A stretch of DNA of 64,000 nt, from contig DATEMU010000001.1 in the NCBI GenBank assembly GCA_035275405.1, forward strand, positions 248,001 to 312,000, given 5' to 3'. This document shows, piece by piece, positions 5,200 to 49,778 of this stretch; positions within the stretch are counted from its first letter, which is position 1, and the number at the start of each line of letters is the position of its first letter. The stretch is from Phycisphaerae bacterium. Its GTDB lineage: Bacteria; Planctomycetota; Phycisphaerae; UBA1845; UTPLA1. The notes below the pieces were generated by a model, which saw only the letters and a program-made list of their open reading frames with translations, was not told the origin of the DNA and made no database searches. The position numbers and the translations under genes are program-made.

Positions 5200-5208
5200 G
5201 TCGTGGGC

Positions 5209-6516: not shown

Positions 6517-6540
6517 CGGTGTGTAACTCAGGACTGTCGG

Positions 6541-7677
6541 TTAACGAGGCACGAAGCTAACCGTGATGTGCAGGATGGTCCAGTAGAGGAAGGATTCCGG
6601 GGCCAGGAGCCAGGCCAGTGAGGAAGTGCGATCCAGCCCAATGGTCCAGACCAGGCCAATAGCCATTAACACGACCACCATGCCGATATGCAGCGTCTTG
6701 AACCCGCGGACGCTGGTTCGCATCCATGTCCACCAACCTTGTGAGGGCGCTTTTGGGGGGTGCTTCGCGAATTGGTACGCCGCGAAGATGTACCAGGCGA
6801 CGACGTGAAAAAGGATGAGCGAGTACGCCCGCGCCGTGAGTATGAGAGAGAGGCCTAGGACGGCGGCGACGCCGAACATGACCTTGAAGAGGACGGCGTG
6901 ATTGCGAAACAGAGTCTGCACGTCGGGATACTTGAGCCGGGCGGCGAAATGCCGGAGTACGATGGCAAATCCCACCGCGGAAAGCACGAACGGTGTCACA
7001 CTCAAGGCGATTCTGAGCGGCAGGGACATGGAACCGTCCAACCAGGAGGCGTTCAGCGTCGCCCAGTTCGCCAGGGCCGAAGTCGGCTCCGTCAATTTCT
7101 TGTAATAGAGCCCGAAAGGGATCGGCGCCCATACGAAGGCCCCCATGGTGAAGACGATCAGCCCGGTCATCCAGCGCACGAGCCCCTTAAACGCCGTCTT
7201 GTCGGCGATGGGCGCGGCCTCGCCGAGGACGGTGTAGAACATTGCCTCGTCGCGAAGTTCGTGGACGAGGAAATAGAGATAGACGCCGCTGTAGAGGAGT
7301 AGATTGGCCTTTCCGCCGCCTTTCCAATAGAGGGTGCACAACGCCGCCCCGGCGATGAGCAGCCCTGCGGCCCACAGCCGTTGCCGCAGGTTCTGGTTCT
7401 TCGGCGAGGAGATCATGAAGAGAAACCCGATGACGATGTGCGGGATGGTGATGTAGCGCATCGCCGCCTCGGACGCCTCGCGAATGAAGCGGATATCGGC
7501 GGGGTGGCGGTGCAGGATGCTCCGCTCGAAGTAGTAGCCGCACCAGAAGATGAACACGATCGCCGCGGTATAGAGACCGGCGCGGAGGAAATTCCGCTCG
7601 GTCACGCCGAGTCGGGCGCGTTCCGGTCGGGCGGCGTAGTCGAGTGCAATCGGTGGAGAACTCGTCCCGTTGGCCAT
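6541..7677 (-). CDS. Multi-pass membrane protein of unknown function, first gene of RnfC/D-like operon
   Basis: About 378 residues from the ATG at 7677. An upstream in-frame TTG at 7773 would add 32 unconvincing residues. Roughly nine to ten hydrophobic segments are visible. Several histidines sit in or next to them ('ITIPHIVIGF', 'FLVHELRDEAMF', 'LILFHVVAWY', 'TLHIGMVV', 'YWTILHITVS'), so heme or metal ligation is conceivable. I recognise no family. Its stop lies 24 bases before the rnfC-like start, and all three genes share a strand, which suggests it is a partner subunit. It lies 110 bases downstream of lpxA, so co-transcription with lpxA is also possible. Confidence 0.7.
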   Translation of the reverse strand: MANGTSSPPIALDYAARPERARLGVTERNFLRAGLYTAAIVFIFWCGYYFERSILHRHPADIRFIREASEAAMRYITIPHIVIGFLFMISSPKNQNLRQRLWAAGLLIAGAALCTLYWKGGGKANLLLYSGVYLYFLVHELRDEAMFYTVLGEAAPIADKTAFKGLVRWMTGLIVFTMGAFVWAPIPFGLYYKKLTEPTSALANWATLNASWLDGSMSLPLRIALSVTPFVLSAVGFAIVLRHFAARLKYPDVQTLFRNHAVLFKVMFGVAAVLGLSLILTARAYSLILFHVVAWYIFAAYQFAKHPPKAPSQGWWTWMRTSVRGFKTLHIGMVVVLMAIGLVWTIGLDRTSSLAWLLAPESFLYWTILHITVSFVPR

Positions 7678-7787
7678 GTGCCGGTTGACTCCCAATCCAG
7701 CGAGGGTGCAGCAGCCCGTCCGTAGGCTGCCGACGAGTGACTTATACGATAGCCGAAGTATGCGAAGAGGCAACCCGTATCGCCGCG

Positions 7788-8600
7788 CTATTCCTCTTCC
7801 GCCGCTTCCACGAGTTCGGCTGCTTTTCGCCCGCCGATAAAGCCCAGCTTGGACGGCGATCCGAGAAACTCGATGATCCGCTTACCCGTCCGCGTTCGCG
7901 CCTTCTCGGTAAACGCCTCAACCGCCTTGCGAAAGGGCAACTCGGAGCGAAACAGGGTACGGTAGGCCTCGCGGACTTCGTTGATTTCGTCGGGCTTGAA
8001 CTCACCGGACCGGCGAAGACCGATCGCGTTGTACCCGACGCACTGCGACTCGTGCAGCGTCTTCATGTAAGGCGGCACATCCTTGGTCACGCGGGCCCCG
8101 CCGCCGACCATCACATATTCCCCGATTCGCGCGAATTGGTGGACCAGGACGTAGCCGCTGACGATGGCGTTGTCGCCAATGATGACGTGTCCGGACAGCC
8201 CGGTGCAATTATACACCTTCACGCCGTTGCCCAACTCGCAATTGTGGCCGATGTGCGCGTAGCCGAGAATAAAGCAGTTCTCCCCGACGATCGTCGACGA
8301 CTCCGGCTGCGTCCCCCGATGGATGGAGGCGAACTCGCGGATGATCGTGCCCGCGCCGATGCGGCAGTACGTCCGCTCGCCGCTGAAGTGAAAATCCTGC
8401 GGCAGGTGCCCGACGACCGCACCGGGATGGATCTCGCAGCGCTCGCCGATCTCCGTCCAGCCGGACAGGTAGGCGTTCGGATAAATCTTGACGCCTGCAC
8501 CGATCTTGACCGGCCCCTCGACGACGACGTGCGGGCCGATGTCAGCGGAAGGATCGATCTGCGCCTGTTTATCGATGATGGCGGTGGGGTGGATGGGCAT
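7788..8600 (-). CDS. lpxA: UDP-N-acetylglucosamine O-acyltransferase
   Basis: 270 residues, the usual LpxA length. It carries out the first step of lipid A synthesis, moving a hydroxyacyl chain from acyl carrier protein to UDP-GlcNAc in the cytoplasm. The left-handed beta-helix hexapeptide pattern fills residues 1-190. The catalytic histidine is His119 in 'AHIGHNC', equivalent to E. coli His125, and 'VHQFARIG' follows as expected. The C-terminal helical domain is present. It is transcribed divergently from rimO with 134 bases between. The presence of lpxA implies an outer membrane with lipid A. No other lpx gene is adjacent. Confidence 0.93.
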   Translation of the reverse strand: MPIHPTAIIDKQAQIDPSADIGPHVVVEGPVKIGAGVKIYPNAYLSGWTEIGERCEIHPGAVVGHLPQDFHFSGERTYCRIGAGTIIREFASIHRGTQPESSTIVGENCFILGYAHIGHNCELGNGVKVYNCTGLSGHVIIGDNAIVSGYVLVHQFARIGEYVMVGGGARVTKDVPPYMKTLHESQCVGYNAIGLRRSGEFKPDEINEVREAYRTLFRSELPFRKAVEAFTEKARTRTGKRIIEFLGSPSKLGFIGGRKAAELVEAAEEE

Positions 8601-8699
8601 CTGGTCGGCGTACTCCTGAGTCCAACTCGGAAATCAATAGCAACCGGATTCTAACTCAAGCCGGCCCCTATGACGAGTGCGGAAAGCGGTTGTACCGGC

Positions 8700-8705
8700 T
8701 ATAAT
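8700..8705 (+). promoter_or_regulatory. Candidate -10 element of rimO
   Basis: Perfect TATAAT 30 bases before the rimO GTG, in the lpxA-rimO divergent gap. No good -35 box is visible at the expected distance, so only the -10 is called. Confidence 0.4.
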
Positions 8706-8734
8706 CGGGCCATTGCCGCACGGAGTTATCGAGA

Positions 8735-10171
8735 GTGACCGCACCCAACGTCTCCTTTGTTTCCCTCGGATGCCCGAAAAACCTCGTCGACTCCGAGAAG
8801 ATGCTCGGCCTCCTTGCTGAGGCGGGGTGCGGGATCGTCGGCGATGGCGGGGCGGCAGACGTCGTCGTCGTCAACACCTGCGGCTTTCTTTCGGCGTCGC
8901 GCGACGAGGCCATCGAAGTGCTCAAGGAGGCCGCCGCACAGAAGAAAAGCGGCGAGGTCAAGCGGCTCGTTGTCGCGGGCTGTCTCGTGCAGCGCGACGG
9001 TCAGGGGCTGGTCGACGCCGTGCCCGAGATCGACGCGCTAGTGGGCGTCAATAATCGCAACGACATCGTTCGGGCCGTATTGGGCGAAAAATCAAAAAGT
9101 CGCAAAGTCAAATCGAAGATCCACCGTGGCGGAAAATCAAAACAAGAAAATAAGAGCACATCGGAAAACGGCCGCACCGTGTTCCTCGGCGAGTATCACT
9201 CGGCGTCATGGATCGACGCGAACAAGTCTGATCGAGCGCGCCTGCGGTTGACGCCGACGCACTACGCCTACCTGCGCATGAGCGAGGGCTGCAACCAGAA
9301 GTGCACGTTCTGCACCATTCCCTCCATCCGTGGACCGATGCACTGCAAATCCGTCGACGAGATCATGGCCGAGGCCCGCGAGCTGATCGACGACGGCGCC
9401 GTCGAACTCAACCTCATCGGACAGGACACGACCAGCTACGGCATGGACATCGGCTACGAGCCGGGGCTATCGGGACTGCTGCGCGAGATGAAAACGCTCG
9501 ATGGCATCGAGTGGATTCGCCTGATGTACGCCTACCCTTCGGATTTCGCGGATGAAATGATCGACGCGATCGCCGATTGCGACAAAGTCGCCAAGTACAT
9601 CGACATCCCGCTGCAACACATCAACGATCGCGTGCTCAAGGCGATGTTCCGCCGCGTTACGCGAAAAGAAACGGAGGTCCTGCTCGAGAAACTCCGCAAG
9701 CGAATTCCGGGCGTGGCGATCCGTACGACCTTCATCGCGGGTTTCCCCGGCGAGACCGACGCGGAGCACCGCGAGCTGTGCGAGTTCGTCCGCGACTTCG
9801 GTTTCGACGCGATGGGTGTATTTCCCTACTCCAGCGAACCGGGCACACCCGCGCATCGGATGAAGGGTGCTTTGCCGCAGGAAACCGTCGAGCACCGCGT
9901 CATGGAACTGATGCAGATCCAACAGGAAGTCGCGTTCGCCAGAGCCGCCTCCGCCAAAGGCCGATCGTTGCGCGTAATGATTGACGATTTCGGAAAGGAC
10001 GGCGTCTATCCCGCCCGCCACCAGGGCCAGGCCCCCGATGTCGACAGCGTCACCTACGTCGAGGGCGGCGAACACGATCCCGGCGAGTTCGTCAACGTCC
10101 GCGTGACGGGTCACGGCGGCTACGATCTGCGAGCCAGGGCTGTCACAATGGGCCTGCCCATCCTTCGCTAA
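8735..10171 (+). CDS. rimO: Ribosomal protein S12 methylthiotransferase
   Basis: 478 residues from a GTG start, preceded by GGAG at a 9-base spacing. The enzyme adds a methylthio group to an aspartate of ribosomal protein S12. It has the N-terminal UPF0004 domain ('SLGCPKNLVDSE'), the radical-SAM triad C186-x3-C190-x2-C193 ('CNQKCTFC') and the C-terminal TRAM domain. It is about 35 residues longer than usual. The excess lies at residues ~117-150, a lysine/serine-rich stretch coded by an AT-rich repeat-like segment at the junction between the first domain and the radical-SAM domain. The 'SLGCPKN' start and 'GQDTTSYG' favour RimO over MiaB. Confidence 0.93.
   Translation: MTAPNVSFVSLGCPKNLVDSEKMLGLLAEAGCGIVGDGGAADVVVVNTCGFLSASRDEAIEVLKEAAAQKKSGEVKRLVVAGCLVQRDGQGLVDAVPEIDALVGVNNRNDIVRAVLGEKSKSRKVKSKIHRGGKSKQENKSTSENGRTVFLGEYHSASWIDANKSDRARLRLTPTHYAYLRMSEGCNQKCTFCTIPSIRGPMHCKSVDEIMAEARELIDDGAVELNLIGQDTTSYGMDIGYEPGLSGLLREMKTLDGIEWIRLMYAYPSDFADEMIDAIADCDKVAKYIDIPLQHINDRVLKAMFRRVTRKETEVLLEKLRKRIPGVAIRTTFIAGFPGETDAEHRELCEFVRDFGFDAMGVFPYSSEPGTPAHRMKGALPQETVEHRVMELMQIQQEVAFARAASAKGRSLRVMIDDFGKDGVYPARHQGQAPDVDSVTYVEGGEHDPGEFVNVRVTGHGGYDLRARAVTMGLPILR
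9086..9160. repeat. AT-rich AAAGTCAAA-type repeat inside rimO
   Basis: Lysine/serine-coding stretch with repeated AAATCAAAA and AAAGTC words in an otherwise GC-rich gene. The same word set appears inverted at 24080-24108 in the ArsR-type gene. It is inserted in frame at an inter-domain position. Confidence 0.5.
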
Positions 10172-10183
10172 ATACAAAACAAC

Positions 10184-10942
10184 TCAGTCCGCCAGCACCA
10201 TCCCCGCGTCAATGAGGAAGTGGATCAGAATCAATACTTCCAATCGGCGCTGTTTCATGAGTATGAATGGCACGCCGAATGCTAGGCCCGCGAAGGCGTA
10301 AACCACGCACATTTGGACGCTCCGCGGCGTACCGTGAATGAAGAGAAACGATACGACGGTAATGGGAAGCGCCCGCCACGGCGAGCCCACGATGCGAGTC
10401 AGCCGCGTAATGGCGAAGCCGCGAAACAGCACCTCCTCCGTCACGCCGGCCGTGAAGGCGACAAAGATGACAAATAGCCGCTCGGGCGTCGAAAGCGGAA
10501 TCATGAATTGCGGTTTGGAGCGCCCGATCCGCGGCAGACCGTCAGGATAATGAAGGCCGGGCGCAACGAACGCCGCGGCGATAAGTGCGGCGAGGATCGT
10601 TGCGAAGACCCACCACCAGCGCCGATACCAGCGCCAGTCCACACCGATCGACGACCACGGCTCGCGGTTTTTCTTGAGCGCCAACCAGACGAAGCCGAGC
10701 GGCACCCAATGAAAGGCCAGCACGAGCAGCCAAAAATACCACCAATGCGCCCGGCTGCCTCGGAAGATTTCGTGGATCAGAGGACCCACATACCCCGCAC
10801 AGTACGCTGCCGGGTAAGCAACCAACGCGAAAAACAACGCGAACCACGTCCAACTATCCAGTTTTCGCCTCCGCGCCGGTAGTCCGTTATCACCTTGAAT
10901 CGCGATAACCATGTGTTTCTTCGTTTGCAGCGAGTCGTTCAC
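10184..10942 (-). CDS. CPBP-family intramembrane protease (Abi/CAAX-like)
   Basis: 252 residues from a GTG at 10942; an ATG ten codons later is an alternative. There are about seven membrane segments. The glutamate motif EExxxR is present as 'GVTEEVLFRGF', followed by the 'FIHGTP' and 'HFLIDAG' histidine motifs, the catalytic set of the CPBP family. Substrates of bacterial members are mostly unknown, and roles in bacteriocin immunity or peptide maturation are family-level ideas only. It converges with rimO with 12 bases between. A second member lies at 37823-38710. Confidence 0.82.
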   Translation of the reverse strand: MNDSLQTKKHMVIAIQGDNGLPARRRKLDSWTWFALFFALVAYPAAYCAGYVGPLIHEIFRGSRAHWWYFWLLVLAFHWVPLGFVWLALKKNREPWSSIGVDWRWYRRWWWVFATILAALIAAAFVAPGLHYPDGLPRIGRSKPQFMIPLSTPERLFVIFVAFTAGVTEEVLFRGFAITRLTRIVGSPWRALPITVVSFLFIHGTPRSVQMCVVYAFAGLAFGVPFILMKQRRLEVLILIHFLIDAGMVLAD

Positions 10943-11051
10943 AATTACAAAAAACAGTCAATTCTCGGACATTTGCACGCGACGCATCTGCGCTCAGCTT
11001 CGATGCGCGCCAGCGCTGCCCATGATAATGACCGTTTGACCTCACTGACAA

Positions 11052-11081
11052 TTGACATTGGCCGTCATATTTGAGTAAGAT
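11052..11081 (+). promoter_or_regulatory. Sigma-70-type promoter for the Ig-like lipoprotein gene
   Basis: TTGACA (11052-11057), 18-base spacer, TAAGAT (11076-11081). This leaves a leader of about 120 bases before the ATG at 11208. Confidence 0.55.
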
Positions 11082-11207
11082 GGGAGCATTCTCAAGGGGT
11101 CGTATCGGGGCCCGGGGCATTCTCAGTTCTGGTTACGAGTGCCAATGCAACGGTGGTGGAGTTAAGCCCGCACCGTTCCAAGAATCGATTTTCGGAGGGT
11201 GAATTCA

Positions 11208-13949
11208 ATGAAGCCGTTTTCCGTCTGCAAGAAATTTCTCTGCCTTTCACTGGTTCTGGCAATCGCCGCGTGCGACCCGGTCGCCGTGCCCACGCTACCC
11301 ATCGCGACTCCGTCGCCGACACCGACTGCCGAAGTGGGACCGCGGCCGCGCCTCCCCAAGAGCGTCACCGGCTTTCTGCCGAAGTCCTCCTCGGCGCACG
11401 CTCTCACGGTGCCCTGTTCATCGAGCAACGGGCCGGCCATGGTCACAGACAAGCCTGATTACGCTCCGGGCGAAATCGCAACGCTGGCAGGTTGCGGCTT
11501 CTGGGCGGACGAGCCGATCGACATCAGCGTTTCCATCGACGATCCCATTACCGGCGCGCATATCGGCGACTACGACTGGAACGTCGAATTCACCGACGCC
11601 AATGGGGCCTTTAGTACGCAATACCTGATTCCACAAGAAGCCGCCTGGATGATCCTCACCGCCACGGCGATGGGTTACGAATCTGGCCTCATTGCCACCG
11701 TTACCTTTACTGATCATCCCGGCAGTAATTTCAGCCTCGCCGGGCCACCGGCGCCGTCAATGACCAAGACCGACGGGACGGGGATCGTCTCGATCTCCGT
11801 GAATGTCGCGCAGACCGGTGGCGCCGCCATCGCGCTCAACGGCGTGAAGGCCCGCGGAACGACGGCCGATGGTGTGGACGAGGGAACGCCCTTCGACGGC
11901 GTACTGTCCAAAGCGGGCGGAGGCTACGGCACCTGGACAGGGTCTTTCACTGGTATCGCCGGACGAACCTATCGATTGAGTGACGTTGAATTAACCCTGG
12001 GCGATGGACACCTGCCGACACCCGGCATTTCCCCCAATATTCTCTTGGACATCCCCGCCTGCAATACGGCGACCGTCGCAACGTGCCCCGTCGATGTCGA
12101 CGAAGGGGACACCACCGTCTCGGTTTCAGCGTCCCTGACTCGAACCGCGACGTTTGCGTACACCACACCGGCCGGCGCTGTGAATGATGGCGCGGTCACC
12201 TTTACCGTCACCCGAGACAGCGACGCGATGGTCATGGGAACCCTCTCCGGCGTGGCCGTCTCCAGTGGAACGACCGGAGCTCAACTGGTGACCGTGGCGG
12301 CTCTAACCTCCGGCGCCTATACACTGAGCGCGGTCTACACGGGCAACACGACGGCCTCCCCCGGCGGAATCCGTCACGCCAACAGCTCTAATTCCTGCGG
12401 CTTCAATGTCGCGTCCAGTTGTACAGCGCCCACCGGTGTGACCATTACTGCTCCTGCCGACGGCGCCGAAATCGAGGCCACCAACCACCCCGACTGTGAC
12501 GAGGCCGACGTGACGGTCACGGCTGAGGCGATCGGTGGCACTGCTCCGGTCACCCTCACCTACAAACTCGACGCCGGCGCGTTTCAGGCCTCGTCCACTT
12601 TCCTCGCCGTCGGGCTCGGAGCGCACACGATTACCGTGAAGGCCACGAACGCCTGCGGCAGCGCGGAAAGCTCCATCAACTTTACCATCGTGCCCGAAGA
12701 GGAGCCGATCACGTTCGTCGACATCACCAGTCCGGCGGATGGCGCGGAATTCGTCTCCTGCGACCCGGTGGACATCGCGGTCTCCGCGGATCACGACGGC
12801 ACGGACGTCACGTTAACTTGGTACGTAGACAATGTCGAAGTCGTGCCGGTCGCCGGGCAGATCAGCGTCGCGCCGGCCAACCCGCCCACTGGGGCGCGGA
12901 CCCTTAAGGTCGTGGCCAGCAATAACTGCACGCCGGTGTCGCCGCAGGATGAAATCACCATCTACGTCCGGGGGATCCCGGTCAGCGACGTTACGATCAG
13001 TGACCCGACTGCCGACCAGGTGTTCACCGCCGCGAATTGCACGGATGCCGAAGTGATCGTGAGTGCTTCGGTCAATGCCGACGCCTGCGAGCCTGTTACG
13101 TTCACTTACAGCCTGGATGGCGGCACTGCCCAGGCGTCGAACACTTTCACCGCCGCCCTCGGCTCACACAGCGTCATCGCTACGGCGAGTAATGAGTGGA
13201 ACACGACCCCGGTGGATAGTGACGCCGTGAGTTTCTCGGTAAAGGCCGAAACCGAAGTCACCATCGACCCTCTGCCCGCCGACTATGGCGCAGGGTCGTG
13301 CGAGCGAACCGTTACCGGCACGCTGAAGGATTCCTGCGGCACGGCGCTGGTAGGCGAAACCGTCACCCTGCTCGCCTCTATCAATGGCGGGTCGTTTGAT
13401 TCTGTGGGTTCCGATACGACCGATGGCAGTGGCGCGTGGAGCGTCACCTGGGGCGGAAGCGAGAACCTCATGCCCGGCAGCACGGTGCAGTATCGCGCGA
13501 CTTACGCCGGCAATGATTCCTACTTCCCGGATGACTCGCCCGATAGCGACTTGGTTCTCGTTCACTATGTCTGGGGCGGCGTCGGCCCACCGCTCAGCGA
13601 GACGACCGTACGAAAGGTCAAGCGCGGCAGCACTGTGCCGGTGAAGTTCAGGATCTACGACTGCGATGGCGCCGAAATCTGCACGAACATCGGCCTCGCC
13701 AACGGTGGCAAGCACACCGTCGCCCTCTACTACAACGCCAACGCGGTCCCGTACGGCGACGATACCTGGGAGGATGCCGGCAGCAGCAGCCCGAGCGGCA
13801 CCGACTTCCGCTATAGCGGAACGTGCGGCGACGGCCAGTGGATCTTCAACCTGAACACCGGCACCGCGCTGCTCAACTGCACCTACAAGATCGTCATCAA
13901 CCTGGACGACGGGAGTTCCCACAACGTGTTTATTTCCATCGTCCGTTGA
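11208..13949 (+). CDS. Large Ig-like repeat lipoprotein with C-terminal PxKF-type domain
   Basis: 913 residues. The N-terminus is a lipoprotein signal with lipobox I-A-A-C (Cys22), then a proline/threonine-rich linker. A domain opening 'VTDKPDYAPGEIATLAG' is the type seen at the start of surface Ig-like proteins. Several Ig-like repeats follow (each with 'ITSPADGAEF' or 'ISDPTADQVF' openings, ~400-680), then a module near 690-790. The C-terminal ~120 residues contain 'TVPVKFRIYDCDG', the PxKF pattern. GGAGGG at 11194-11199 fits the ATG at 11208 better than the in-frame GTG at 11199. It probably sits on the cell surface as a structural or adhesive protein; no enzyme motif is seen. Confidence 0.85.
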   Translation: MKPFSVCKKFLCLSLVLAIAACDPVAVPTLPIATPSPTPTAEVGPRPRLPKSVTGFLPKSSSAHALTVPCSSSNGPAMVTDKPDYAPGEIATLAGCGFWADEPIDISVSIDDPITGAHIGDYDWNVEFTDANGAFSTQYLIPQEAAWMILTATAMGYESGLIATVTFTDHPGSNFSLAGPPAPSMTKTDGTGIVSISVNVAQTGGAAIALNGVKARGTTADGVDEGTPFDGVLSKAGGGYGTWTGSFTGIAGRTYRLSDVELTLGDGHLPTPGISPNILLDIPACNTATVATCPVDVDEGDTTVSVSASLTRTATFAYTTPAGAVNDGAVTFTVTRDSDAMVMGTLSGVAVSSGTTGAQLVTVAALTSGAYTLSAVYTGNTTASPGGIRHANSSNSCGFNVASSCTAPTGVTITAPADGAEIEATNHPDCDEADVTVTAEAIGGTAPVTLTYKLDAGAFQASSTFLAVGLGAHTITVKATNACGSAESSINFTIVPEEEPITFVDITSPADGAEFVSCDPVDIAVSADHDGTDVTLTWYVDNVEVVPVAGQISVAPANPPTGARTLKVVASNNCTPVSPQDEITIYVRGIPVSDVTISDPTADQVFTAANCTDAEVIVSASVNADACEPVTFTYSLDGGTAQASNTFTAALGSHSVIATASNEWNTTPVDSDAVSFSVKAETEVTIDPLPADYGAGSCERTVTGTLKDSCGTALVGETVTLLASINGGSFDSVGSDTTDGSGAWSVTWGGSENLMPGSTVQYRATYAGNDSYFPDDSPDSDLVLVHYVWGGVGPPLSETTVRKVKRGSTVPVKFRIYDCDGAEICTNIGLANGGKHTVALYYNANAVPYGDDTWEDAGSSSPSGTDFRYSGTCGDGQWIFNLNTGTALLNCTYKIVINLDDGSSHNVFISIVR

Positions 13950-39492: not shown

Positions 39493-42189
39493 TTATGGCC
39501 GCGGCCGCGGATCCGGCGGGTTGGGAACATACGGCGCGATCGGGTTCATCAGGTCTTCCTCGTCGCGGGGCCAATTCACCTCGTCGCCGATGAAGGTGTC
39601 CAGCACCAGCAGAGTGCGTGATGTCACGGAATGGGAAAGATCGCCGCTGGACGAGGCGACCGGGATGACGACATAGCCGAGGAAGCGCTCATCGCGGGGG
39701 CGATTGGCGAAGGTAGATTTGGCGTCGGCGGGTTCGTTCAGGAGCGTGACGTATGCTGTCAGGGCCTCGGGTTTGACGAAGAGAAGATCGCGGGCTTTGC
39801 CGTCCTTCTGATAGGCGAGCGCCGCGCAGGCCTCACGGTCCCAGTCGAGGACGTTGTTCACGGCGACATCCTGGTCCTTGCCCGGTTGCCAGGTTGTCGA
39901 GAGGACGCGATAGGTCGCCGACGCCTTGCGGTCGGGCGCCGCGAGGGCAAAAAAGCCGCCCGCTTTTTCGATGTGAAAGTCAATGGCAAGGTTGGGAATG
40001 CCGGTGATCCGCTGCAAGTCCGTGGCGGTGAGGCGCGGCAGAAACTCCTGATAGTCCTTCTTCACGTCGCGCCACAAATAGTGCTCGCCGGCCTTCGGCG
40101 GCGTGTACTTCGGGACGAGTCCCTCGGCGGGCGGCTCGTTGAGGTACGCCAGACCGGGAAGGGCCTGGCCGTTGAAGTCGCAGAAGCGGACGGAGAAGCC
40201 CCAGCCCTTATCGCGCGGTGAGGGCCAGGCCTCGACGACCAACCGCAGTTCGTTCCAGCCCGCCTTGAGTGGGGCGTGCGCGGCGACGGTATCGACGAGA
40301 TTCTTGTCCTCGTAGTTGCCCGCGGAGTAGTAGCGGCCTTCGTGGATCAGGCAGCCGTTGAGCCACGCGGCTAATCCGTCGTTCTGACCGATCCACATGC
40401 GGACGTCCTGGTCGATCGGCGAATACACCCACGTCGTAGCCTCGGCCAATGCCGCACCGGACTTGCCCAGCAGCTTGGCGAGATCAACGAAGTCGGCGTC
40501 GCTGACGACGGTGACGGTATGGAGGGAGGGTCCGGAGTTGATCGGATCGAGTACGTGGTGTCGCAGTGGCTCAGAACTATTGCCGGACTCGCGTACCGGA
40601 AATGGTCCTTTGATTTGCCAGAGTCGCACATGATTGCCCGGCGAGCACAAATCGGTCATCTTCGGCCGCAACGCCATCGCCGGAGTGAAGTTGTAGCGCA
40701 GCGCCGCGCGAAGGCTGTATGTCTCATGCGGCACTGGTTGGTGACCGCAGTCCCAGAGGTCGTCGCCGGCGGGATACCCCTCGCCGATCTCGCCGACGTG
40801 CGCCGCCCAGGTGTAATGCTGATACCAGGCTTGGAACATCTCCTTCCAGCCGGCGTCGTCGTAAAGGCAGGAGATCGCCGCGCCTTTCGGCCCGCTGTCG
40901 CCACCGGCGGTCAGGACATTGGGCTCCTTGTCAGTCGCGACGCGCGGGCGGATGAAGATGACGCTGTCGAACCAGCCGCGGTCGCCGACGAGGTCCTCTT
41001 TAGGGCCGTGTACGCCGCCTGGATATGTGCGGAAGGCGTGGGCGGTCTCGTCCTTGAACTCGTGCGTGGTAGTGATGATCCGCACAGCCCCGCCCGTGGC
41101 CGCTTCGACCATCCGCTGCACGACGATCCAGTCGCCCTTGATATCGAAAAGGCGATCGTTGGGAATGGACTTGTTCTGACGCGATTCGAGGATGACCAGG
41201 AGCGTGTACCAGGGCGAGACCTTTTTGGGGAAGGATGCCTCGTAGCAGCGCTCCATGTAGGGCAATTGCTTGAACTGGTTTGCGTCGAGGCGATCGAGCA
41301 TCTCGCCCGCGCGGAACTGACTCTCGGCGTGCAGCGGGTAGATGACCCGGCACTCGTTGAATTCGCCGAAGGCCGGCCCGAAGAGGCTGCACTGCTGGAG
41401 GTAAAGCGCCCAGCGCCAATGTTCCATGAAGTTGCCGGAGAGCTTGCGCGGCCGCGTTTCGAAGCCGAACAGGCGGACGCCGCGCCGGGCGATGCGGGCA
41501 AGCGTCTCGTTTTGCGACTGTGCGAGCTTGCGGTATTCGAGGAGGGCGTTGACGTTGTCCCCGCCGATCTCGAAGGCCAGGGCCTTGAAGTACGCCTTGA
41601 TCTCCGGGTCCGAGGCGGCGTCGTAAAATGCCGCAATCGGCCCGTTCAACGTCTCGTTGAGCAGGAGCGGATCGGGCATGGCGAACACCGCAAAATCGAA
41701 TTGATCGGCGCGGCTTTCGAGGACGGCCTTGATGGCCATGCGACCGGTCGCGTATTCCGGATTTCGGCGGATGACGTCGAGGTTAATGACGTAGGCCGTA
41801 ACGAACGGGTGCAGGTTCCACGGCGGCAGTTCCTGACCGGCAATGGTGAACTTGATGGTGGCGGGAACCTGCTCCATCTCTGGCGGGGCATCCGGATCGG
41901 CGGGCTGCGACATGGGGAACCGGAATTCCTTGGCCGCTTTGGGCTGCTTGCCCATGAGTACGAGGGCCTGCGGCAAGGGTCCGTTCGCCCCCATGGGCAG
42001 CCGCCACGAATCTTCGGGTTTGTCTTTGGTGATCTGACCGGAACCCATGCGGAGGACGGTCACGTCGGGATGGCCGGCGGCCCCGGCCCGCGCGGTCAAC
42101 ACAATGGCGGCAAACAGGGCGATGCAGTGAAAGGTCGGTCGATTCATCGGGCGGTGCAGATTCCTTGAACTAAACCGTGAAGTCTTCAT
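39493..42189 (-). CDS. Large secreted protein of unknown function, last gene of the vWA/ExbBD operon
   Basis: 898 residues (884 if the ATG at 42147 is used). A signal peptide is clear ('FHCIALFAAIVLTARAGA'). A helical middle part follows, then a block around 590-680 with 'WIGQNDGLAAWLNGCLIHEG' and 'LKAGWNELRLVVEAW', the beta-sandwich (galactose-binding-like) pattern used as sugar- or protein-binding modules in planctomycetes. The first 590 residues match nothing I know; a scattering of His/Glu ('HEFKDETAHAF') is seen but no certain protease motif. It starts 39 bases after the OB-like gene, so it is probably the exported partner of the ExbBD system. Confidence 0.78.
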   Translation of the reverse strand: MKTSRFSSRNLHRPMNRPTFHCIALFAAIVLTARAGAAGHPDVTVLRMGSGQITKDKPEDSWRLPMGANGPLPQALVLMGKQPKAAKEFRFPMSQPADPDAPPEMEQVPATIKFTIAGQELPPWNLHPFVTAYVINLDVIRRNPEYATGRMAIKAVLESRADQFDFAVFAMPDPLLLNETLNGPIAAFYDAASDPEIKAYFKALAFEIGGDNVNALLEYRKLAQSQNETLARIARRGVRLFGFETRPRKLSGNFMEHWRWALYLQQCSLFGPAFGEFNECRVIYPLHAESQFRAGEMLDRLDANQFKQLPYMERCYEASFPKKVSPWYTLLVILESRQNKSIPNDRLFDIKGDWIVVQRMVEAATGGAVRIITTTHEFKDETAHAFRTYPGGVHGPKEDLVGDRGWFDSVIFIRPRVATDKEPNVLTAGGDSGPKGAAISCLYDDAGWKEMFQAWYQHYTWAAHVGEIGEGYPAGDDLWDCGHQPVPHETYSLRAALRYNFTPAMALRPKMTDLCSPGNHVRLWQIKGPFPVRESGNSSEPLRHHVLDPINSGPSLHTVTVVSDADFVDLAKLLGKSGAALAEATTWVYSPIDQDVRMWIGQNDGLAAWLNGCLIHEGRYYSAGNYEDKNLVDTVAAHAPLKAGWNELRLVVEAWPSPRDKGWGFSVRFCDFNGQALPGLAYLNEPPAEGLVPKYTPPKAGEHYLWRDVKKDYQEFLPRLTATDLQRITGIPNLAIDFHIEKAGGFFALAAPDRKASATYRVLSTTWQPGKDQDVAVNNVLDWDREACAALAYQKDGKARDLLFVKPEALTAYVTLLNEPADAKSTFANRPRDERFLGYVVIPVASSSGDLSHSVTSRTLLVLDTFIGDEVNWPRDEEDLMNPIAPYVPNPPDPRPRP

Positions 42190-42228
42190 CCCTTCGGCTA
42201 TTGTCGCCGGGTCGCAAAGTGATGCAAG

Positions 42229-43077
42229 TCAGGATGCGGAGGGAGTCGAGTTTGACGACTTGGAGTCCACCGGGTTCTCGGACGCGCGCGGCGGGGCGTT
42301 GTCCGGCGGCAGCCATGCGAAATCGTCGTCGGTGTCCCGGCGCGCCGGGACGCGCGTACCGGATCGGCCTGCAAGGTGCGAGTCTCGTGCCGCCGTTCGG
42401 CGCGTTGCGGCACGGCGCAGCCACAGCCAGAGAATGGCCAGAAGCGCGATTCCGGGGATGAGCCAACGATCGAGCGAGGCTGCCGGTCCACCGCCGGGAA
42501 TGCCCGTGGCGGGAGGCGAGAGGAGGTGGAGGTTCTTGGCGACGATCAGCGGGCCGGCGCCGGTTTCCCCGGCGCTGGTTTGAAAGGCGCGAACTTTGAT
42601 GAAATAGCCCTTCACGCGGACGCGCGAACGTAGCGGAACCGCCAATGGCTCCTGCGTACAAATGACGGCGCCCAGCGCGCGGGTGCCGGTCTCCGACAAT
42701 TCGCATTGGTAGAGCCTGCCGAGCCCCTCGCGGTTGGTTACATCGAAAGCGCGGATGGCCTGCAGTGTGCCTTCGATGACGACGGGCTTGCCGCGAAAGT
42801 CGCTGGGGCGTTCGAGGAGCAGGGTCCAGGGGAGCGATTCAGGGGATTCCTTGCCGGCAAGGGCGACATCAGCTTTCCCCGACGCGACGAATCGGCAGAA
42901 CCAATAGAAGGCTGGATCGTCGAAGGAAAAGACATTGTCACGGACATCTTCGAGGAGGCGGGCGGCGTGCGCGAGGTCGTCGGCCTCTGGTTGTGCAAGT
43001 GCGGCGCCAGGCATCAATGCGACGAGTGCGACGGCGAACGGCATCAGACGATGTTTCGATAGGCGGCTGGCGTTCAT
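42229..43077 (-). CDS. OB-like exported protein with C-terminal membrane anchor
   Basis: 282 residues. Signal peptide (ends 'AALAQP', ~29). A beta-barrel-like domain (~95-190) has 'FRGKPVVIEGTLQAIRAF' and 'LRSRVRVKGYFIKVRAF', the rhythm of an OB-fold. A membrane helix follows (~208-222, 'WLIPGIALLAILWLWL') and a basic, proline/serine-rich cytoplasmic tail. Its ATG overlaps the TPR gene stop by four bases (ATGA), so the two are co-translated. No known family. Confidence 0.75.
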   Translation of the reverse strand: MNASRLSKHRLMPFAVALVALMPGAALAQPEADDLAHAARLLEDVRDNVFSFDDPAFYWFCRFVASGKADVALAGKESPESLPWTLLLERPSDFRGKPVVIEGTLQAIRAFDVTNREGLGRLYQCELSETGTRALGAVICTQEPLAVPLRSRVRVKGYFIKVRAFQTSAGETGAGPLIVAKNLHLLSPPATGIPGGGPAASLDRWLIPGIALLAILWLWLRRAATRRTAARDSHLAGRSGTRVPARRDTDDDFAWLPPDNAPPRASENPVDSKSSNSTPSAS

Positions 43078-45740
43078 TGCGAATCACCGCGGCCATCGGC
43101 CTCGCGGGCCTTGGCGGCCAATTCCAGCAGTCGCCCCTGCCATGGCGGGCCGCCGAGGTCGGGGAACCACGCCTTTTCGGATTCTATTCCCTTCCATACA
43201 TCGGCCGCGCGACCGTGGCGGAGTTGATGCGCGAGCCAGTAATACCGCGCCTCCCAATAGACCTCGGGCGAGCGTTGGCGGAGGGAAGCATCTTCGAGGA
43301 GCCTGCCCCATTGCGCTTCGGCGCGATCGGCGGCGTCCGGATGGCTGGAGCTGGCGGCGAGTTGTTCTTCCAGCAGCGCCGCCCTGCGGAGATGGTCGCC
43401 GTTGGCCGGGTCGGCGGCGATGAGCTCGTCGTATTGGGCGCGGGCCGCGGCAAACTCGCCGAGCTGGACGAGGGCCTCGGCCAAACCGACCCTGGCCGCG
43501 ATCGCGGCGCGACGTAATTCGTCGCCATCCGGTTGTTTGTCCATCCACGCGATCAGCTCGCGGAGGATGCCCGCGCAGGCGGACCAGTTCTTCTTCGCAT
43601 CGTCCGTGCGGTCGGCTTTTTGTAAGCGGCGGGCGGCGCCTTCGTAATGCGCGGCCAGCGCCGCGAGGAGAGGGCCGCGCTGCGCCCCGGAGGCGTCATT
43701 CAGGATCGCGTCGAATTCCCGGCGGGCAGCGGCTTCATCGCCCCGGCTGGTAAGACATCGAAGCCGAAGGAGCAGGACGCGCTCGGATTGCGGCATTCTT
43801 TGCAGAATCGACAGGGCGTCATCGATGCGCTCCAGGTCCGGACCGGCCAACAACTCCGCGGCGGCGAGGTTCGCTTCATCGACTGACGGCTGGGAGGCGG
43901 TTGAAGTGGTGGTCGGCATCCCGGCGACGGCGATCCAGGCGTCGGCGGCGGCCTTTGCGGCTTCACGGCGAGCCTGGTGAGCCGCGTCGGGAGCAAGCTG
44001 ATCGTAGAGCCGCTGGCGGCAGATCGCGATGCCCCAGCGGGCGGAACGATAACGGGATGACTTTTCTGGAATGCGGGCGTAGGCCTCAAGGGCTCTGTTC
44101 CATTGACCCGTCTCCTGGTGCGCGAGGGCGGCGACCCAACGGGCTTCTCCAGCGAGATCATTGCGGGGATAACGATCGGCCAAATGAGTGGCGGCGCGGG
44201 TGAGGTTGTCGTAGTTTGCGGTCGATTTTTCCGAATTCGCGATCTGCCGCCGGCAATGATAGGCATAGACGGCCGCCTGCTCGGCAAGATCGCCGCGCGA
44301 TTCCTCCCGCGCAATGCCCTCGAATTGTTCAGCGGCGGCGGATAGGTCCCCGATCTGAAAACGACAAACCGCCAGGTTGAAGGCGGCTTCCGTCCTCTCC
44401 GGGTCTTTGTCGGCGCGGCTGAGCAGCAGCGTCAGGGGTTCGATCGCCTGTCGGTACTGGGCTTCTTTCATCCAGCGCGCGGACAGCAGCGACAATTCGG
44501 CGTCGCCGAGTTCGGCAAGGTTCTGGCGCGGACCGCGCAACGCCGCAAGGTAGACTTGGGCGATTTCCGTCCACGGCCCGCCTTGTTTGGCGATCTCGTT
44601 GAATTCCGCCGCGGCCTTGTCGCGCAGAGCGGCCCGGCTGGCGGCATTGCGGCCTGCGGCCTTTGACTCCAGGAGGTAGCTATAAGCGGTCACTAACGGA
44701 GCGAGGCGTTGATAGAAGTTGGATGCGCCGTCCGGATCGTTCGTTCGCTCCAGTTCCGCCAGCTCCCGGCGGGCTGCGTCGAACTCCCCGGCGGCAAGAT
44801 GCGTCCGGGACTGTTCAAAGCGGGCGCGAATAATCACCGCGGACGACGCGACCGACAGGCGGACGCGATCGAACGCGGAATGGGCTTCGGTCGTCCGACC
44901 GCTCTCGCGAAGGGCGACGCCCGCGCCCAGGAGGGCGTTGTATTTTTGCTCGGAGTCTCTGGCGGAACGGGCGAGCGCGTCGAAATCGGCGAGCGCGCCA
45001 TCGAGGAGGGCCTGGCGGCGTCCCGGCGCGCCGGGATCATTGGCCGATTCGGCGGGGTCGCGATCGACCATCGCCAGATAGACGGCGGTCCAGGCGGCGT
45101 TGAGGCGGCGCTGCTCGGCCAGCCGCGCGATCTTCGCGGCCAGGCCCAGGAGCAGATATTGTTCTTCCTGGGTGCGCAGGCCCACGAGCAATTCGTCCAA
45201 CCGGACGGCCGATTGTCTGTAGAGGAGATGCGCGTCGTTCAGCAGGCCGACGATTCGCGGGCGATCATAGTCAAGTCCGCTCGTCACTTCGTAACGATCC
45301 AGGTCGGGGGCCGCCTGGCGTCGAAGGATGAGTTCAGAGAGTTCGACCTGCCAGAGGGCGATGTCGTAGCGTCGGCGCAGGCCGCGCAGCCAATTGGAGT
45401 CCCTGGCCAGCGTGAGAGCGCGGCGGTATTCGCTTGAGGCCTTTTCGAGAAACTTCTGCCGCTCCACGTCCGCCTTGGCGCCGATCGCCGCCTTGGCGTA
45501 GGCGCGGGCGATGTGGATGCGGTGCATGGTGGGCGCACCGGCGAGAAGCTCCTCCACGAGTTCCGGCATGTCCCGGTCGGTGAGTTCGTCGACAAGCGCC
45601 CGCTGCTCGCGCGGCAGGGCGTCGTCGGGTTCGCGCTCCGCGACGTCCGGCGACTGTGCCAGGGCGGCCGCGGCGCACCCCGCGAGCGCCAGCAGGGCCA
45701 GCGGCGTTCGGCGCAGCGTTCTCGGCGAGAGGGCGTCCAT
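43074..45740 (-). CDS. Large TPR-repeat exported protein or lipoprotein
   Basis: 888 residues from the ATG at 45740, two bases after the second exbD stop. A longer frame from 46154 would overlap exbD and is rejected. The signal sequence 'LALLALAGCAAAALAQ' contains a lipobox-like L-A-G-C and also an Ala-x-Ala site, so it is a lipoprotein or periplasmic. The rest is helical repeats of TPR type (e.g. 'EAAFNLAVCRFQIGDLSAAAEQFEGIA', 'ALEAYARIPEKSSRYRSARW', 'AEALVQLGEFAAARAQYDELI'). TPR proteins commonly accompany ExbB/ExbD sets as periplasmic scaffolds. Confidence 0.83.
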   Translation of the reverse strand: MDALSPRTLRRTPLALLALAGCAAAALAQSPDVAEREPDDALPREQRALVDELTDRDMPELVEELLAGAPTMHRIHIARAYAKAAIGAKADVERQKFLEKASSEYRRALTLARDSNWLRGLRRRYDIALWQVELSELILRRQAAPDLDRYEVTSGLDYDRPRIVGLLNDAHLLYRQSAVRLDELLVGLRTQEEQYLLLGLAAKIARLAEQRRLNAAWTAVYLAMVDRDPAESANDPGAPGRRQALLDGALADFDALARSARDSEQKYNALLGAGVALRESGRTTEAHSAFDRVRLSVASSAVIIRARFEQSRTHLAAGEFDAARRELAELERTNDPDGASNFYQRLAPLVTAYSYLLESKAAGRNAASRAALRDKAAAEFNEIAKQGGPWTEIAQVYLAALRGPRQNLAELGDAELSLLSARWMKEAQYRQAIEPLTLLLSRADKDPERTEAAFNLAVCRFQIGDLSAAAEQFEGIAREESRGDLAEQAAVYAYHCRRQIANSEKSTANYDNLTRAATHLADRYPRNDLAGEARWVAALAHQETGQWNRALEAYARIPEKSSRYRSARWGIAICRQRLYDQLAPDAAHQARREAAKAAADAWIAVAGMPTTTSTASQPSVDEANLAAAELLAGPDLERIDDALSILQRMPQSERVLLLRLRCLTSRGDEAAARREFDAILNDASGAQRGPLLAALAAHYEGAARRLQKADRTDDAKKNWSACAGILRELIAWMDKQPDGDELRRAAIAARVGLAEALVQLGEFAAARAQYDELIAADPANGDHLRRAALLEEQLAASSSHPDAADRAEAQWGRLLEDASLRQRSPEVYWEARYYWLAHQLRHGRAADVWKGIESEKAWFPDLGGPPWQGRLLELAAKAREADGRGDSQ

Positions 45741-45744
45741 GTCA

Positions 45745-46215
45745 TCACGATTCGTCGGTACGGACCGGCGTCGATCCGCCGCCGATGACCAGTTCGAGAT
45801 TGGGAAAGCCGGCGCGCTGACAGGTGTCCATGGCCGAAATGACGCTTTCGAAGCGAACGGCGGGCTCCGCCAACAGGAGCACGCGACCCGCGGCGTCAGC
45901 GCCGGCGTCCTTTCTCTCGGTGAGCAGGCTCGACAACACGTCAAAGGAACTCTCGGCCAATGCCTGCCCCATGACCAGTATCCGCAGCCCCCCGGGCGAT
46001 TCGCGGAGTTCGATCCGCACGACGGGCACGATGGAGACCCGAGCGCCGCCCCCCGGGCCGATTTGAGTAGGTAAGCGCGTCGGGAGCACTCCTTCGGGTG
46101 TGGCGAAACCCGTTCCGAGCATGAAAAAAATGAGGATGACCATGACGACATCAACCATGGGCGCGAGGTTGGGGATGCGGACGCGCGGCGCGCGACCGTG
46201 CAGATTTGGCATCAT
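45745..46215 (-). CDS. ExbD/TolR-family protein (second copy)
   Basis: 156 residues. One N-terminal membrane helix contains the essential aspartate, Asp22 in 'NLAPMVDVVMVILIFFML', then a periplasmic domain with 'AMDTCQRAGFPNLELVIG'. ExbD subunits sit inside an ExbB pentamer and use the proton flow. The ATG overlaps the first exbD stop (ATGA at 46212-46215). It is about as diverged from the first copy as paralogs in two-ExbD systems usually are. Confidence 0.88.
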   Translation of the reverse strand: MMPNLHGRAPRVRIPNLAPMVDVVMVILIFFMLGTGFATPEGVLPTRLPTQIGPGGGARVSIVPVVRIELRESPGGLRILVMGQALAESSFDVLSSLLTERKDAGADAAGRVLLLAEPAVRFESVISAMDTCQRAGFPNLELVIGGGSTPVRTDES

Positions 46216-46649
46216 GGTCCGGCTCCGTCGTACCGCAGCGCCCCGAAGGTGATGTCCGACACACCCGCCCTGGCACAACCCTGCAGAACGGCATCGATGT
46301 GACCGTAGGGCAGCCGCCGATCGGCGCGGATCATGCACGTGATGTCAGGATGCTCCTGCGCCTGAGTGTCGATGTGATTCAGGACTTCTGCCAGGCTGCG
46401 CGGTTCCTCGCGGATCAGATACCTGGGTGCTCCGCGACCGTCGGCATCGGCGATGTTGATGACGATCCGTCGGTCGCGATCGCCGCCCTCCGGGTCCTGC
46501 GCGGCACGGGCGACGGGCAGGTCGATCCGGCTGATTTCCTGCTCCACCATCCGCGTGGCGAGCATGAAGAAAATGAGCAGGCACATCATGACATCGACCA
46601 TGGGGGCCAGGTTGAGATCGAAGGATGCGGCCGATGGGATGTTTCGCAT
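46212..46649 (-). CDS. ExbD/TolR-family protein (first copy)
   Basis: 145 residues. Single helix with Asp19 in 'NLAPMVDVMMCLLIFFML', then a periplasmic domain ending 'DAVLQGCARAGVSDITFGAL'. GAGGA six bases before the ATG. It starts 23 bases after exbB and overlaps the second exbD. Two ExbD proteins per ExbB is a layout seen in other planctomycete and myxobacterial systems. Confidence 0.9.
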   Translation of the reverse strand: MRNIPSAASFDLNLAPMVDVMMCLLIFFMLATRMVEQEISRIDLPVARAAQDPEGGDRDRRIVINIADADGRGAPRYLIREEPRSLAEVLNHIDTQAQEHPDITCMIRADRRLPYGHIDAVLQGCARAGVSDITFGALRYDGAGP

Positions 46650-46672
46650 GCCGGTCCTCGTTAAGGGAACGC

Positions 46673-47494
46673 TCAGCCCGCCACCGGCGCGGCCGCCGGC
46701 TCGTTCTTGGAGATGGAATCGTTCTTGGGGACGGAATCGTTTTTGGCGGTGGTCGCGACCGCCGAACCGACGGTGATCGGCCGGAAATATTCAAGGAGAT
46801 CAATGACGGCGGCGTGCGCGGAGGTCGTGAAGGCGTCCACGCGGCTGCGGCAGATTCCGAAAAAGCCGAGGGAGATAATGGCGACGGCGAGGCCGAGGAA
46901 GGTATTGACGAGGGCGAGGCTGATACCGCCCGCAAGATTTTCCGGTTTGTAGGCGCCGTGCGCATCCTGCATCGCGCCGAAGGCGCGGATCATTCCGAGC
47001 ACGGTGCCCAGCAGTCCCATGAGCGGGGCGAGATTTCCGATGATGTTCAAATACTCAACCTTGCGAAACAGGCGGCTGGACCAGGCGGCGGCGCGTTCCT
47101 GCGAGGCCTCGTACATGGCGTCGAAGCCGTTGCGCCCGTGGCGCAGGCCGATCGTCAGGACGTCAGCGAACATCGACCGGCTGGCACGGACGGACTCGAT
47201 GCACTCCTTGAACTTGCGGGCCTCGATGAGCTGGCGCGTTTCCTCGAACTCGGCCGCCGGCAGCATGGTCGCGTTCCGGATCGACCAGAAATGCTCGACG
47301 ATGATGGTCACGGAGGCGAGGGAAAGCAGGAGGATGATCGCGCCCGGCCACTCGGCCCCTTCGAGGATGACCTGGAGGAGCGATTTTCCGGCGGTCGTGG
47401 GGGTATCGGCGGCGAAGATTACGGTGGCGCTGCCGGCAAAGACCATCGCTGCGAGGACGGCAGCGCGAAGGTAGTACATTTTCGCTCGGTGCAT
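46673..47494 (-). CDS. ExbB/TolQ/MotA-family proton channel protein
   Basis: 273 residues from the ATG at 47494. A hydrophobic signal-like start (~10-26) precedes the first true helix (~45-62). The family core is 'NIIGNLAPLMGLLGTVLGMIRAF' followed by 'LVNTFLGLAVAIISLGFF'. ExbB forms the stator that converts the proton gradient into movement of a TonB- or Tol-type partner. It starts 16 bases after the vWA gene. The C-terminal tail carries the imperfect repeat 'KNDSVPKNDSISKNE', coded by a small tandem repeat of 15 bases. Confidence 0.9.
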   Translation of the reverse strand: MHRAKMYYLRAAVLAAMVFAGSATVIFAADTPTTAGKSLLQVILEGAEWPGAIILLLSLASVTIIVEHFWSIRNATMLPAAEFEETRQLIEARKFKECIESVRASRSMFADVLTIGLRHGRNGFDAMYEASQERAAAWSSRLFRKVEYLNIIGNLAPLMGLLGTVLGMIRAFGAMQDAHGAYKPENLAGGISLALVNTFLGLAVAIISLGFFGICRSRVDAFTTSAHAAVIDLLEYFRPITVGSAVATTAKNDSVPKNDSISKNEPAAAPVAG

Positions 47495-47510
47495 GTGGGG
47501 CCCTTGGCGT

Positions 47511-48560
47511 TTAGCGGCGGAGGTCCTCTTCGGTGACATGCTTATACACGCCGCCGTTGGATTCGGCGATGGCCCGGAGCACCCGCTCGCCTTCGCCCAT
47601 TGTGTCATACACGAAAAGTATCGCATTGATCGTGGATTGCCGGTTTCGGTTGAACTGCCGGATCGTTCGGACGATGTTCTTGTTTTCCTCGCCGAAGTCG
47701 CCGTCGGAAAGCAGGAACAGCACGTCCGGCTTGTAACCCAGGCCGAGCCGTATCGCGGCCACCGGCTCGGTCTGGCCGCTGGGCACGATGCGGCCGATGG
47801 CAGCGAAGGCGTGTTGTTTGTTGGCGAGGGTCGCGGGCTTCATTCGCGAAAATAACTCCGTCGGCTTGCCCTCGTTGAACCAGATCACCTCAAAAATCTG
47901 GTCGCGCTCCAGCGAGCCGATGGCCCGTTTCAATTCGCGCTGGAGCAGGCCAAACGTGTCGCTCATGGACCCGCTGCGGTCCATGACATAGACAATCGAG
48001 CGCGCCCGCTGGCCTTCGCCGACGCCCCACAGGCTTCCCACAGGACCGCCGCCGGCGAGATCCCGATCTCCCAGACCGGTTCCCTGGCCACCCTGACCCG
48101 ATGCGGAATCGAGACCGATGCCCACCACATCGCCTCGGCGCAGTTCTCCGGCGGCGTCGGCCAGTCCCGCGCCGGTAGGTACCGAACTGGCCTCGATGGG
48201 AGGCTGTTCCTGCTTCAAAAGATCGGAAAGGTCGGTCGAATCGCTCTTGAACTCGGCGGCCTTCGAGGAATCCGGCCGCTCGATGTAGGCGTAACCGGGG
48301 AATTGAAATCCTCCGCCGGGCGCGGTCGATTCCACCGCGGAGACCACGTGCACCTTAAAGTCGCGATCGGAGGGCTCGATGGTGCCTCCGATGGCCCATG
48401 TGGCGAGCCCCAGCAGAAGGACCATGAAAGCGTGAACGAGAAGGCTGATACCCGCGGAGCCGACAGTCTGCACGTAACCTCCGGCCTTGGGCTGAGGCGA
48501 AAGTGCATCGGCATTGGCGGGTGGCTCGAAGGTCGCGGGGGGCAATGGAAGGGGCTCCAT
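47511..48560 (-). CDS. vWA-domain protein with TonB-like N-terminal anchor
   Basis: 349 residues. A proline-rich cytoplasmic start (1-30) leads into one membrane helix (~38-57, 'ISLLVHAFMVLLLGLATW') that contains Ser39-x3-His43, the spacing of the functional Ser/His pair in TonB's helix. A glycine/serine-rich periplasmic linker follows. Residues ~187-349 are a von Willebrand A domain with MIDAS motif D194-R-S196-G-S198 and 'LFLLSDGDFG'. TonB would have a short C-terminal receptor-binding domain here. It is the first gene of the ExbB/ExbD operon, so it is the natural candidate for the part moved by the motor. Its ligand is unknown. Confidence 0.88.
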   Translation of the reverse strand: MEPLPLPPATFEPPANADALSPQPKAGGYVQTVGSAGISLLVHAFMVLLLGLATWAIGGTIEPSDRDFKVHVVSAVESTAPGGGFQFPGYAYIERPDSSKAAEFKSDSTDLSDLLKQEQPPIEASSVPTGAGLADAAGELRRGDVVGIGLDSASGQGGQGTGLGDRDLAGGGPVGSLWGVGEGQRARSIVYVMDRSGSMSDTFGLLQRELKRAIGSLERDQIFEVIWFNEGKPTELFSRMKPATLANKQHAFAAIGRIVPSGQTEPVAAIRLGLGYKPDVLFLLSDGDFGEENKNIVRTIRQFNRNRQSTINAILFVYDTMGEGERVLRAIAESNGGVYKHVTEEDLRR

Positions 48561-48704: not shown

Positions 48705-49778
48705 TTATTGTGTTTGGGTTACGGACTGGGCGAGTTCCTTTGACGTCTCGTAGTACTTGAGGACACGCTTGAATTCCTCGGCTTGTTCGCCGGTGGTCAG
48801 GTCGATGGCTTTTTTCTGGGTGGCGATGGCGGCGTCGATCATGCCCATGGTGCACTGGGTCTGCGCGAGTAAGAGCAGGGCCTCGGCGTCCTGACCGTTG
48901 GTCAGTTCGTTGGCTCGATTGACGCTGCGATAGAGCATGGCGGCGTTTCGATCGGAGAGCGGCTTTTCCAATTCGACGGCGGCAAGCTGCAGCAGACCGT
49001 CGGACGAGTCCTTCATGGCCACTTCGATCTTGGCCTCCCAGGCGGGGATCTGGTCCTCCATGTCGAATTCGGCGAGAAGTTGCTTCTTGATCAAGTACGC
49101 CTGAATGTCGTTTGGCTTGAGGGCCATGATCTCATCAAGGATTTTGAAGACCCGCTCCTTGTCCTGGTTCCCGTAAGCGGCGCGAAGCTCACCCATCAAC
49201 TCGTTGGCCTTCTTGGCGTTAGCCGCGGCTTTCTTGGCGGCGACGATGTCGAAGCTGCCGGTCAGGACCTGTTTGATGGTATCGTCCATGACCTTGGTGT
49301 CGGCGAGGGGGTTGCCGGTCCACACGATGGTGCCGGTCTTATCGACGACAAACGCGTAGGGGATGCCTTCGACGTCTTTCATCCAGACGTTTTGGGTGTC
49401 CATGTCTTCGTCGGAGCCGACGAAGTAGGGCATCTCCAGCTTCAACTTCTTGGCCTTGCCGCTTAAGAAGCTGGCGATCGTGTCAGGCTCTTCGTTGCTG
49501 ATCCCGAGGACCACGAGACCGTCCTTCTGATGTTTCCGGTGAAGCTCGGCGAGGTGGGGAACGCTCTTCATGCACGGACCGCACCACGTCGCCCAGAATT
49601 CGACGAGGAAAATGTGCTTCTCGGCGCCCTTGTCGTTAGGGAGGGCGGGCGGCGCCAGGGTCATCCACTTGGCGACTTTCACCGGCGGGGCCTTGTCGCC
49701 GATCTGCGGGGCGGCACGAACCAGGGAAGGAAATAATACCGCGAACGTGGTCGCAAGAAGCAGGGAGTATCGTGTCAT
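48705..49778 (-). CDS. Exported thioredoxin-like (TlpA/ResA type) protein with helical C-terminal region
   Basis: 357 residues. Signal peptide (~1-22), then a TlpA-like redoxin domain with the active site Trp-Cys66-Gly-Pro-Cys69 and 'GIPYAFVVDKTGTIVW' (cis-proline loop). Residues ~190-350 form TPR-like helices. Such proteins reduce or isomerise disulfides outside the cytoplasm. It is 144 bases upstream of the vWA gene on the same strand and may or may not belong to that operon. Confidence 0.87.
   Translation of the reverse strand: MTRYSLLLATTFAVLFPSLVRAAPQIGDKAPPVKVAKWMTLAPPALPNDKGAEKHIFLVEFWATWCGPCMKSVPHLAELHRKHQKDGLVVLGISNEEPDTIASFLSGKAKKLKLEMPYFVGSDEDMDTQNVWMKDVEGIPYAFVVDKTGTIVWTGNPLADTKVMDDTIKQVLTGSFDIVAAKKAAANAKKANELMGELRAAYGNQDKERVFKILDEIMALKPNDIQAYLIKKQLLAEFDMEDQIPAWEAKIEVAMKDSSDGLLQLAAVELEKPLSDRNAAMLYRSVNRANELTNGQDAEALLLLAQTQCTMGMIDAAIATQKKAIDLTTGEQAEEFKRVLKYYETSKELAQSVTQTQ

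Follow-up and report, generated by a model that had tools for sequence, protein, structure and literature searches.

What does a motor of the ExbB/ExbD type pull on when its TonB-like arm ends in a von Willebrand A (vWA) domain? Among arms that transmit the proton-motive force as far as the outer membrane, TonB and TolA have been studied best. An operon in a 64,000-nucleotide stretch of a Phycisphaerae genome (hereafter, the window) suggests a third kind of arm. In our reading, to which we assign a probability of about 0.68, this operon encodes a proton-driven force transducer of an already published vWA class, which pulls on a partner in the envelope, probably the TPR protein encoded in the same operon.

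The operon comprises seven genes (Table 1), separated, from vwa to the gene of the secreted protein, by 16, 23, -4, 4, -4 and 39 bases. All of the genes proposed in the initial annotation were present, but the gap between exbD2 and the TPR gene is 4 bases and not 2, and the range given there, 42189 to 48560, ends at the start codon of the secreted-protein gene, which reaches 39493. Pfam matches (MotA_ExbB, 3e-26; ExbD twice, 2e-22 and 1e-14; TPR, 2e-11) agreed with the genes read as ExbB, two ExbD proteins and an 888-residue TPR protein. The best NCBIfam models for the motor genes were tolQ and tolR, both under their cut-offs. A thioredoxin-like gene upstream (48705-49778) was rejected as an operon member, as a seed search found no homologue of it beside orthologous operons. 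None of the seven operon proteins matched a PADLOC-DB model at an E value of 0.01, and a role in anti-phage defence was rejected.

Table 1. Genes of the vWA operon (positions in the window)
Gene	Product	Position	Strand	Remark
vwa	vWA force transducer, 349 aa; helix ~35-58 (Ser39-x3-His43), beta-prone segment ~66-72, Gly-rich linker, C-terminal vWA domain	47511..48560	-	first gene of operon
exbB	ExbB/TolQ-type motor subunit, 273 aa; Thr164 and Thr198	46673..47494	-	
exbD1	ExbD1/TolR-type subunit, 145 aa; Asp19	46212..46649	-	
exbD2	ExbD2/TolR-type subunit, 156 aa; Asp22	45745..46215	-	paralogue distinct from ExbD1
TPR gene	exported TPR protein, 888 aa	43074..45740	-	order-wide partner of motor genes
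OB-fold gene	OB-fold protein, 282 aa; signal sequence, C-terminal membrane helix, DFxW	42229..43077	-	
secreted-protein gene	exported protein, 898 aa	39493..42189	-	loose link to operon

The product of the first gene matched Pfam vWA models at 3e-5, under the Pfam cut-off. A profile of 35 orthologues compared with the PDB matched solved vWA domains, that of inter-alpha-inhibitor H4 at 6e-12 and that of the calcium-channel alpha-2/delta subunit also, and on the basis of this profile match the C-terminal domain is assigned to the vWA fold. A single hydrophobic helix (approximately residues 35 to 58) lies ahead of the domain, the linker measures 129 residues with 19% Gly, and the metal ion-dependent adhesion site (MIDAS) consists of D194, S196, S198, T264 and D286. 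The helix with its Ser39-x3-His43 pair, the glycine-rich linker and the intact MIDAS, all described in the initial annotation, were indeed seen in the protein.

Orthologues were drawn from 60 relatives and from 80 named genome loci, mostly of Phycisphaerae and other Planctomycetota; because these sets overlap, they were reduced to distinct sequences ahead of counting. In an alignment of 35 sequences with 20 to 57% identity to the window protein, the 12 invariant columns include S39 and H43, and D194, S198 and D286 of the MIDAS are likewise invariant. Position 196 is Ser in 34 of the 35 sequences. At position 264 of the MIDAS, 29 sequences have Thr and 6 have Ala, the latter all from a single family (f5). 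Given the Ala in this family, metal use by the vWA domain may not be universal. Among 98 distinct full-length vWA proteins, 97 carry S-x3-H in the helix, compared with 9% after letter shuffling of the same windows, and the sole exception is a different, unrelated vWA protein (L102). Conservation of the pair had been named at the outset as a test of the TonB analogy, and these counts speak for it.

The spacing of the pair is identical to that of S16/H20 in Escherichia coli TonB, as had been proposed, and also to that of S18/H22 in TolA (both sequences were fetched as yardsticks). Of the published SHLS motif, the last two letters are only partly kept, with mostly L, F or M at position 50 and mostly T, V or S at position 54. 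A predicted beta-strand (the "motor box") has been described after the TolA/TonB helix, with a suggested contact to the dimeric subunit of the motor (PMC12204202). In the vWA family, the mean Chou-Fasman beta-propensity peaks 25 residues after the His, compared with +25 in TonB and +28 in TolA, and the window protein reads DFKVHVV at this position (approximately residues 66 to 72). Judged by propensity, the vWA family thus possesses the predicted motor box that characterizes the published class.

The motor residues are conserved as well. The membrane Asp is present in 94 of 94 ExbD1 and 94 of 94 ExbD2 sequences examined, including five that were missed by the search pattern and in which the Asp was recognised by eye. 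ExbB T164 and T198, which we take to be the counterparts of the pore threonines of E. coli, do not vary across 19 sequences, among them the second ExbB of the same genome. As two different ExbD paralogues are encoded at nearly all linked loci, a mixed ExbD1-ExbD2 dimer is likely. The genome also carries a second motor cluster (L078; G000:C19:4000-23690, 4913-12625), which encodes a TPR protein of 1054 aa, ExbB, one ExbD and a PD40 beta-propeller protein of 1094 aa that is anchored in the membrane. This cluster looks Tol-like but contains neither a vWA nor a TolA gene.

The vwa gene is most commonly followed by exbB, exbD1, exbD2 and the TPR gene. All four lie downstream of vwa at 58 of the 80 named loci, and several of the other 22 stop at a contig edge. 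The expectation that the same order would recur in other Planctomycetota was therefore borne out widely. In many families outside that of the window genome, a small exported TPR gene (product of approximately 360 to 400 aa) lies between vwa and exbB, for example at L040, L041, L043, L046 and L049.

The vWA protein could instead be a force-free, membrane-tethered chaperone or scaffold of the Bat or YfbK-like kind, co-expressed by chance with a motor that serves another transducer. Bat operons also contain vWA and TPR pairs. Some vWA orthologues, moreover, have no adjacent motor: motor genes are absent within reach of the vWA gene in some Planctomycetia, and none was found downstream of the S-x3-H vWA proteins at Pirellula-type and related loci (L156, L158-L160 and L163-L165), whose motor may be encoded elsewhere. 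However, in a phylum-wide sample of 149 genomes, exbB adjoined vwa for 12 of 20 proteins with S-x3-H and for none of 9 without it (p=0.003); the search profile contained the helix, and adjacency played no part in the selection of hits. The invariance of the TonB-type pair, its tie to motor adjacency and the motor-box spacing all argue against a force-free scaffold, which we regard as highly improbable. Coupling of the helix to the motor is well supported by sequence, and the conserved Ser/His pair and the gene order support the original proposal of a TonB/TolA-like helix that is coupled to an ExbB/ExbD motor and ends in a vWA domain.

The partner of the vWA domain had been sought in either the secreted or the TPR protein. 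The OB-fold and secreted-protein genes follow the TPR gene at the core locus only in the family of the window genome. The predicted structure of the OB-fold protein, in which a long C-terminal helix comes after an OB domain, bears out its earlier description as OB-like. In its orthologues, the C-terminal D-F-x-W that follows the membrane helix is invariant and presumably lies in the cytoplasm. For the secreted protein, the predicted structure comprises a TPR region (approximately 180 to 321), a domain similar to 6o38 chain F (320 to 514; Z 10.4) and a PA14/GH2-type beta-sandwich (515 to 690). The entry 6o38 represents the secreted metalloprotease CpaA bound to its chaperone, and a protease function was therefore considered. 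However, the secreted protein of the operon has no HExxH, nor is one conserved across ten of its orthologues, and it was thereby ruled out as a standard zinc protease.

A beta-sandwich of this type is typical of sugar-binding modules, and a gliding role has been proposed for the class (PMC12204202). Both would suit an arm that acts in gliding or attachment by pulling on adhesins or on secreted proteins of the cell surface, and whose tip is the PA14-bearing secreted protein. However, the secreted-protein gene is separated from vwa in three genomes (G003, G009 and G011), and its family occurs in two (G012 and G044) in which no vWA gene was detected. Furthermore, the gene is mostly confined to one family, and other families do not have it beside the core genes. 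Surface pulling is thus unlikely in our estimate. For the same genomic reasons, the secreted protein is the weaker candidate, and this half of the initial proposal is weakened. Throughout the order the TPR gene comes after the motor genes, which, as far as gene order can tell, makes its product the better candidate for the partner.

Another possibility is a TonB substitute that energises the import of nutrients or macromolecules across the outer membrane. In the window genome itself (96% complete), no TonB-dependent receptor barrel was found, nor any match to the TonB C-terminal domain (PF03544) or to the TonB_2/TolA-type domain (PF13103). Among 61 genomes (this one and the 60 relatives), a receptor barrel occurs in 23, a TonB C-terminus over the cut-off in 3 and the vWA gene, as a single copy, in 56. 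A substitute for TonB would account for the 20 of 23 receptor-bearing relatives without a recognisable TonB C-terminal domain. However, the vWA gene is kept in 34 of the 38 genomes without a receptor barrel, and receptor-driven nutrient import is therefore not the main job of the vWA machine in most hosts; we consider the TonB-substitute explanation improbable. Six of the receptor loci in genomes without a recognisable TonB (L199-L204) have no TonB-like or motor gene nearby, while in G043 (L205) TonB adjoins its receptor. A broader version, in which the vWA arm has replaced both TonB and TolA as the general transducer of the order and also powers the receptors of the 20 TonB-less genomes, seems similarly doubtful to us. 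It would have one motor with a heterodimeric ExbD and a metal-gated grip maintain the envelope in nearly all genomes. As the vWA gene is near-universal and single-copy, its distribution suggests a housekeeping envelope role.

The force-transducer reading that we prefer builds on what can be read directly from the operon and its relatives, namely the genes, the fold family, the conserved motor and docking residues, their spacing and the gene order. ExbB, presumably as a pentamer, would assemble with one ExbD1 and one ExbD2 into a 5:2 motor, and protons would cross via Asp19 and Asp22 of the two ExbD proteins and the threonine ring of ExbB. The vWA helix would dock on the side of ExbB through Ser39 and His43, as in TonB and TolA, and the short beta segment that follows it may touch the ExbD pair. 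From there, the flexible linker of approximately 129 residues could span the periplasm and carry the vWA domain, which would grip its partner in a metal-dependent manner and pull as the motor turns. The partner would most likely be the exported TPR protein that the operon itself encodes, and the task most likely the maintenance or remodelling of the envelope, as for Tol-Pal, and not nutrient import.

As a third arm, the vWA protein has an unrelated gripping domain and is near-universal and single-copy in an order whose genomes mostly have no recognisable TonB; it illustrates how this motor family is re-tooled and offers an entry point to an envelope process in Planctomycetota. The operon shares with TonB-ExbB-ExbD the S-x3-H helix motif, the post-helix beta segment and the motor residues. 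In contrast to that system, it has two different ExbD proteins and no TonB C-terminal domain, and the genome has no receptor; the vWA protein matches vWA models only, and PF03544 is absent from the whole genome. With Tol-Pal (TolQRA-TolB-Pal-CpoB), it has in common the TolQ/TolR-type motor, the TolA-like helix motif and a TPR protein in the cluster, whereas a vWA domain stands in place of the TolA C-terminal domain, and inspection of the operon and of orthologous loci revealed neither tolB nor pal. The TPH-vWA/TolQ pairs (PMC12204202, Fig. 4c-d) likewise consist of a TolQ-like motor and a vWA protein anchored in the membrane. However, a separate TolR/ExbD is missing from these pairs and the proton Asp lies in their vWA helix, whereas the helix described here has Ser/His and no Asp and is accompanied by two ExbD proteins.

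The closest system is the class of vWA force transducers (Tichowtungia type; PMC12204202, Mol Biol Evol 2025, Fig. 4a-b), which is characterized by an SHLS helix, a vWA tip, a TPR gene, a TolQ-like gene and paired TolR-like genes, and for which AF3 models of other members place the helix on the motor, consistent with the docking proposed here. The operon belongs to this class. The initial annotation had considered it an undescribed TonB-type system, which is not the case, because the class has already been reported, including Planctomycetes with TPR and paired TolR-like genes; no other paper on it was found in the literature searched. What is new here is the order-wide conservation, the independence from TonB-dependent receptors and the weak linkage of the secreted protein, so that the published class gains a quantified conservation and a ranking of partner candidates. 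Shared with the class are the TonB/TolA helix motif, the motor-box linker, the vWA domain and the TolQ-like, two TolR-like and TPR genes. However, the vWA gene often lies downstream of the TPR, tolQ and tolR genes in the published systems, whereas here it comes first; the family of the window genome adds the OB-fold gene and often the TPR/PA14 secreted-protein gene, while other families of the order insert the small TPR gene.
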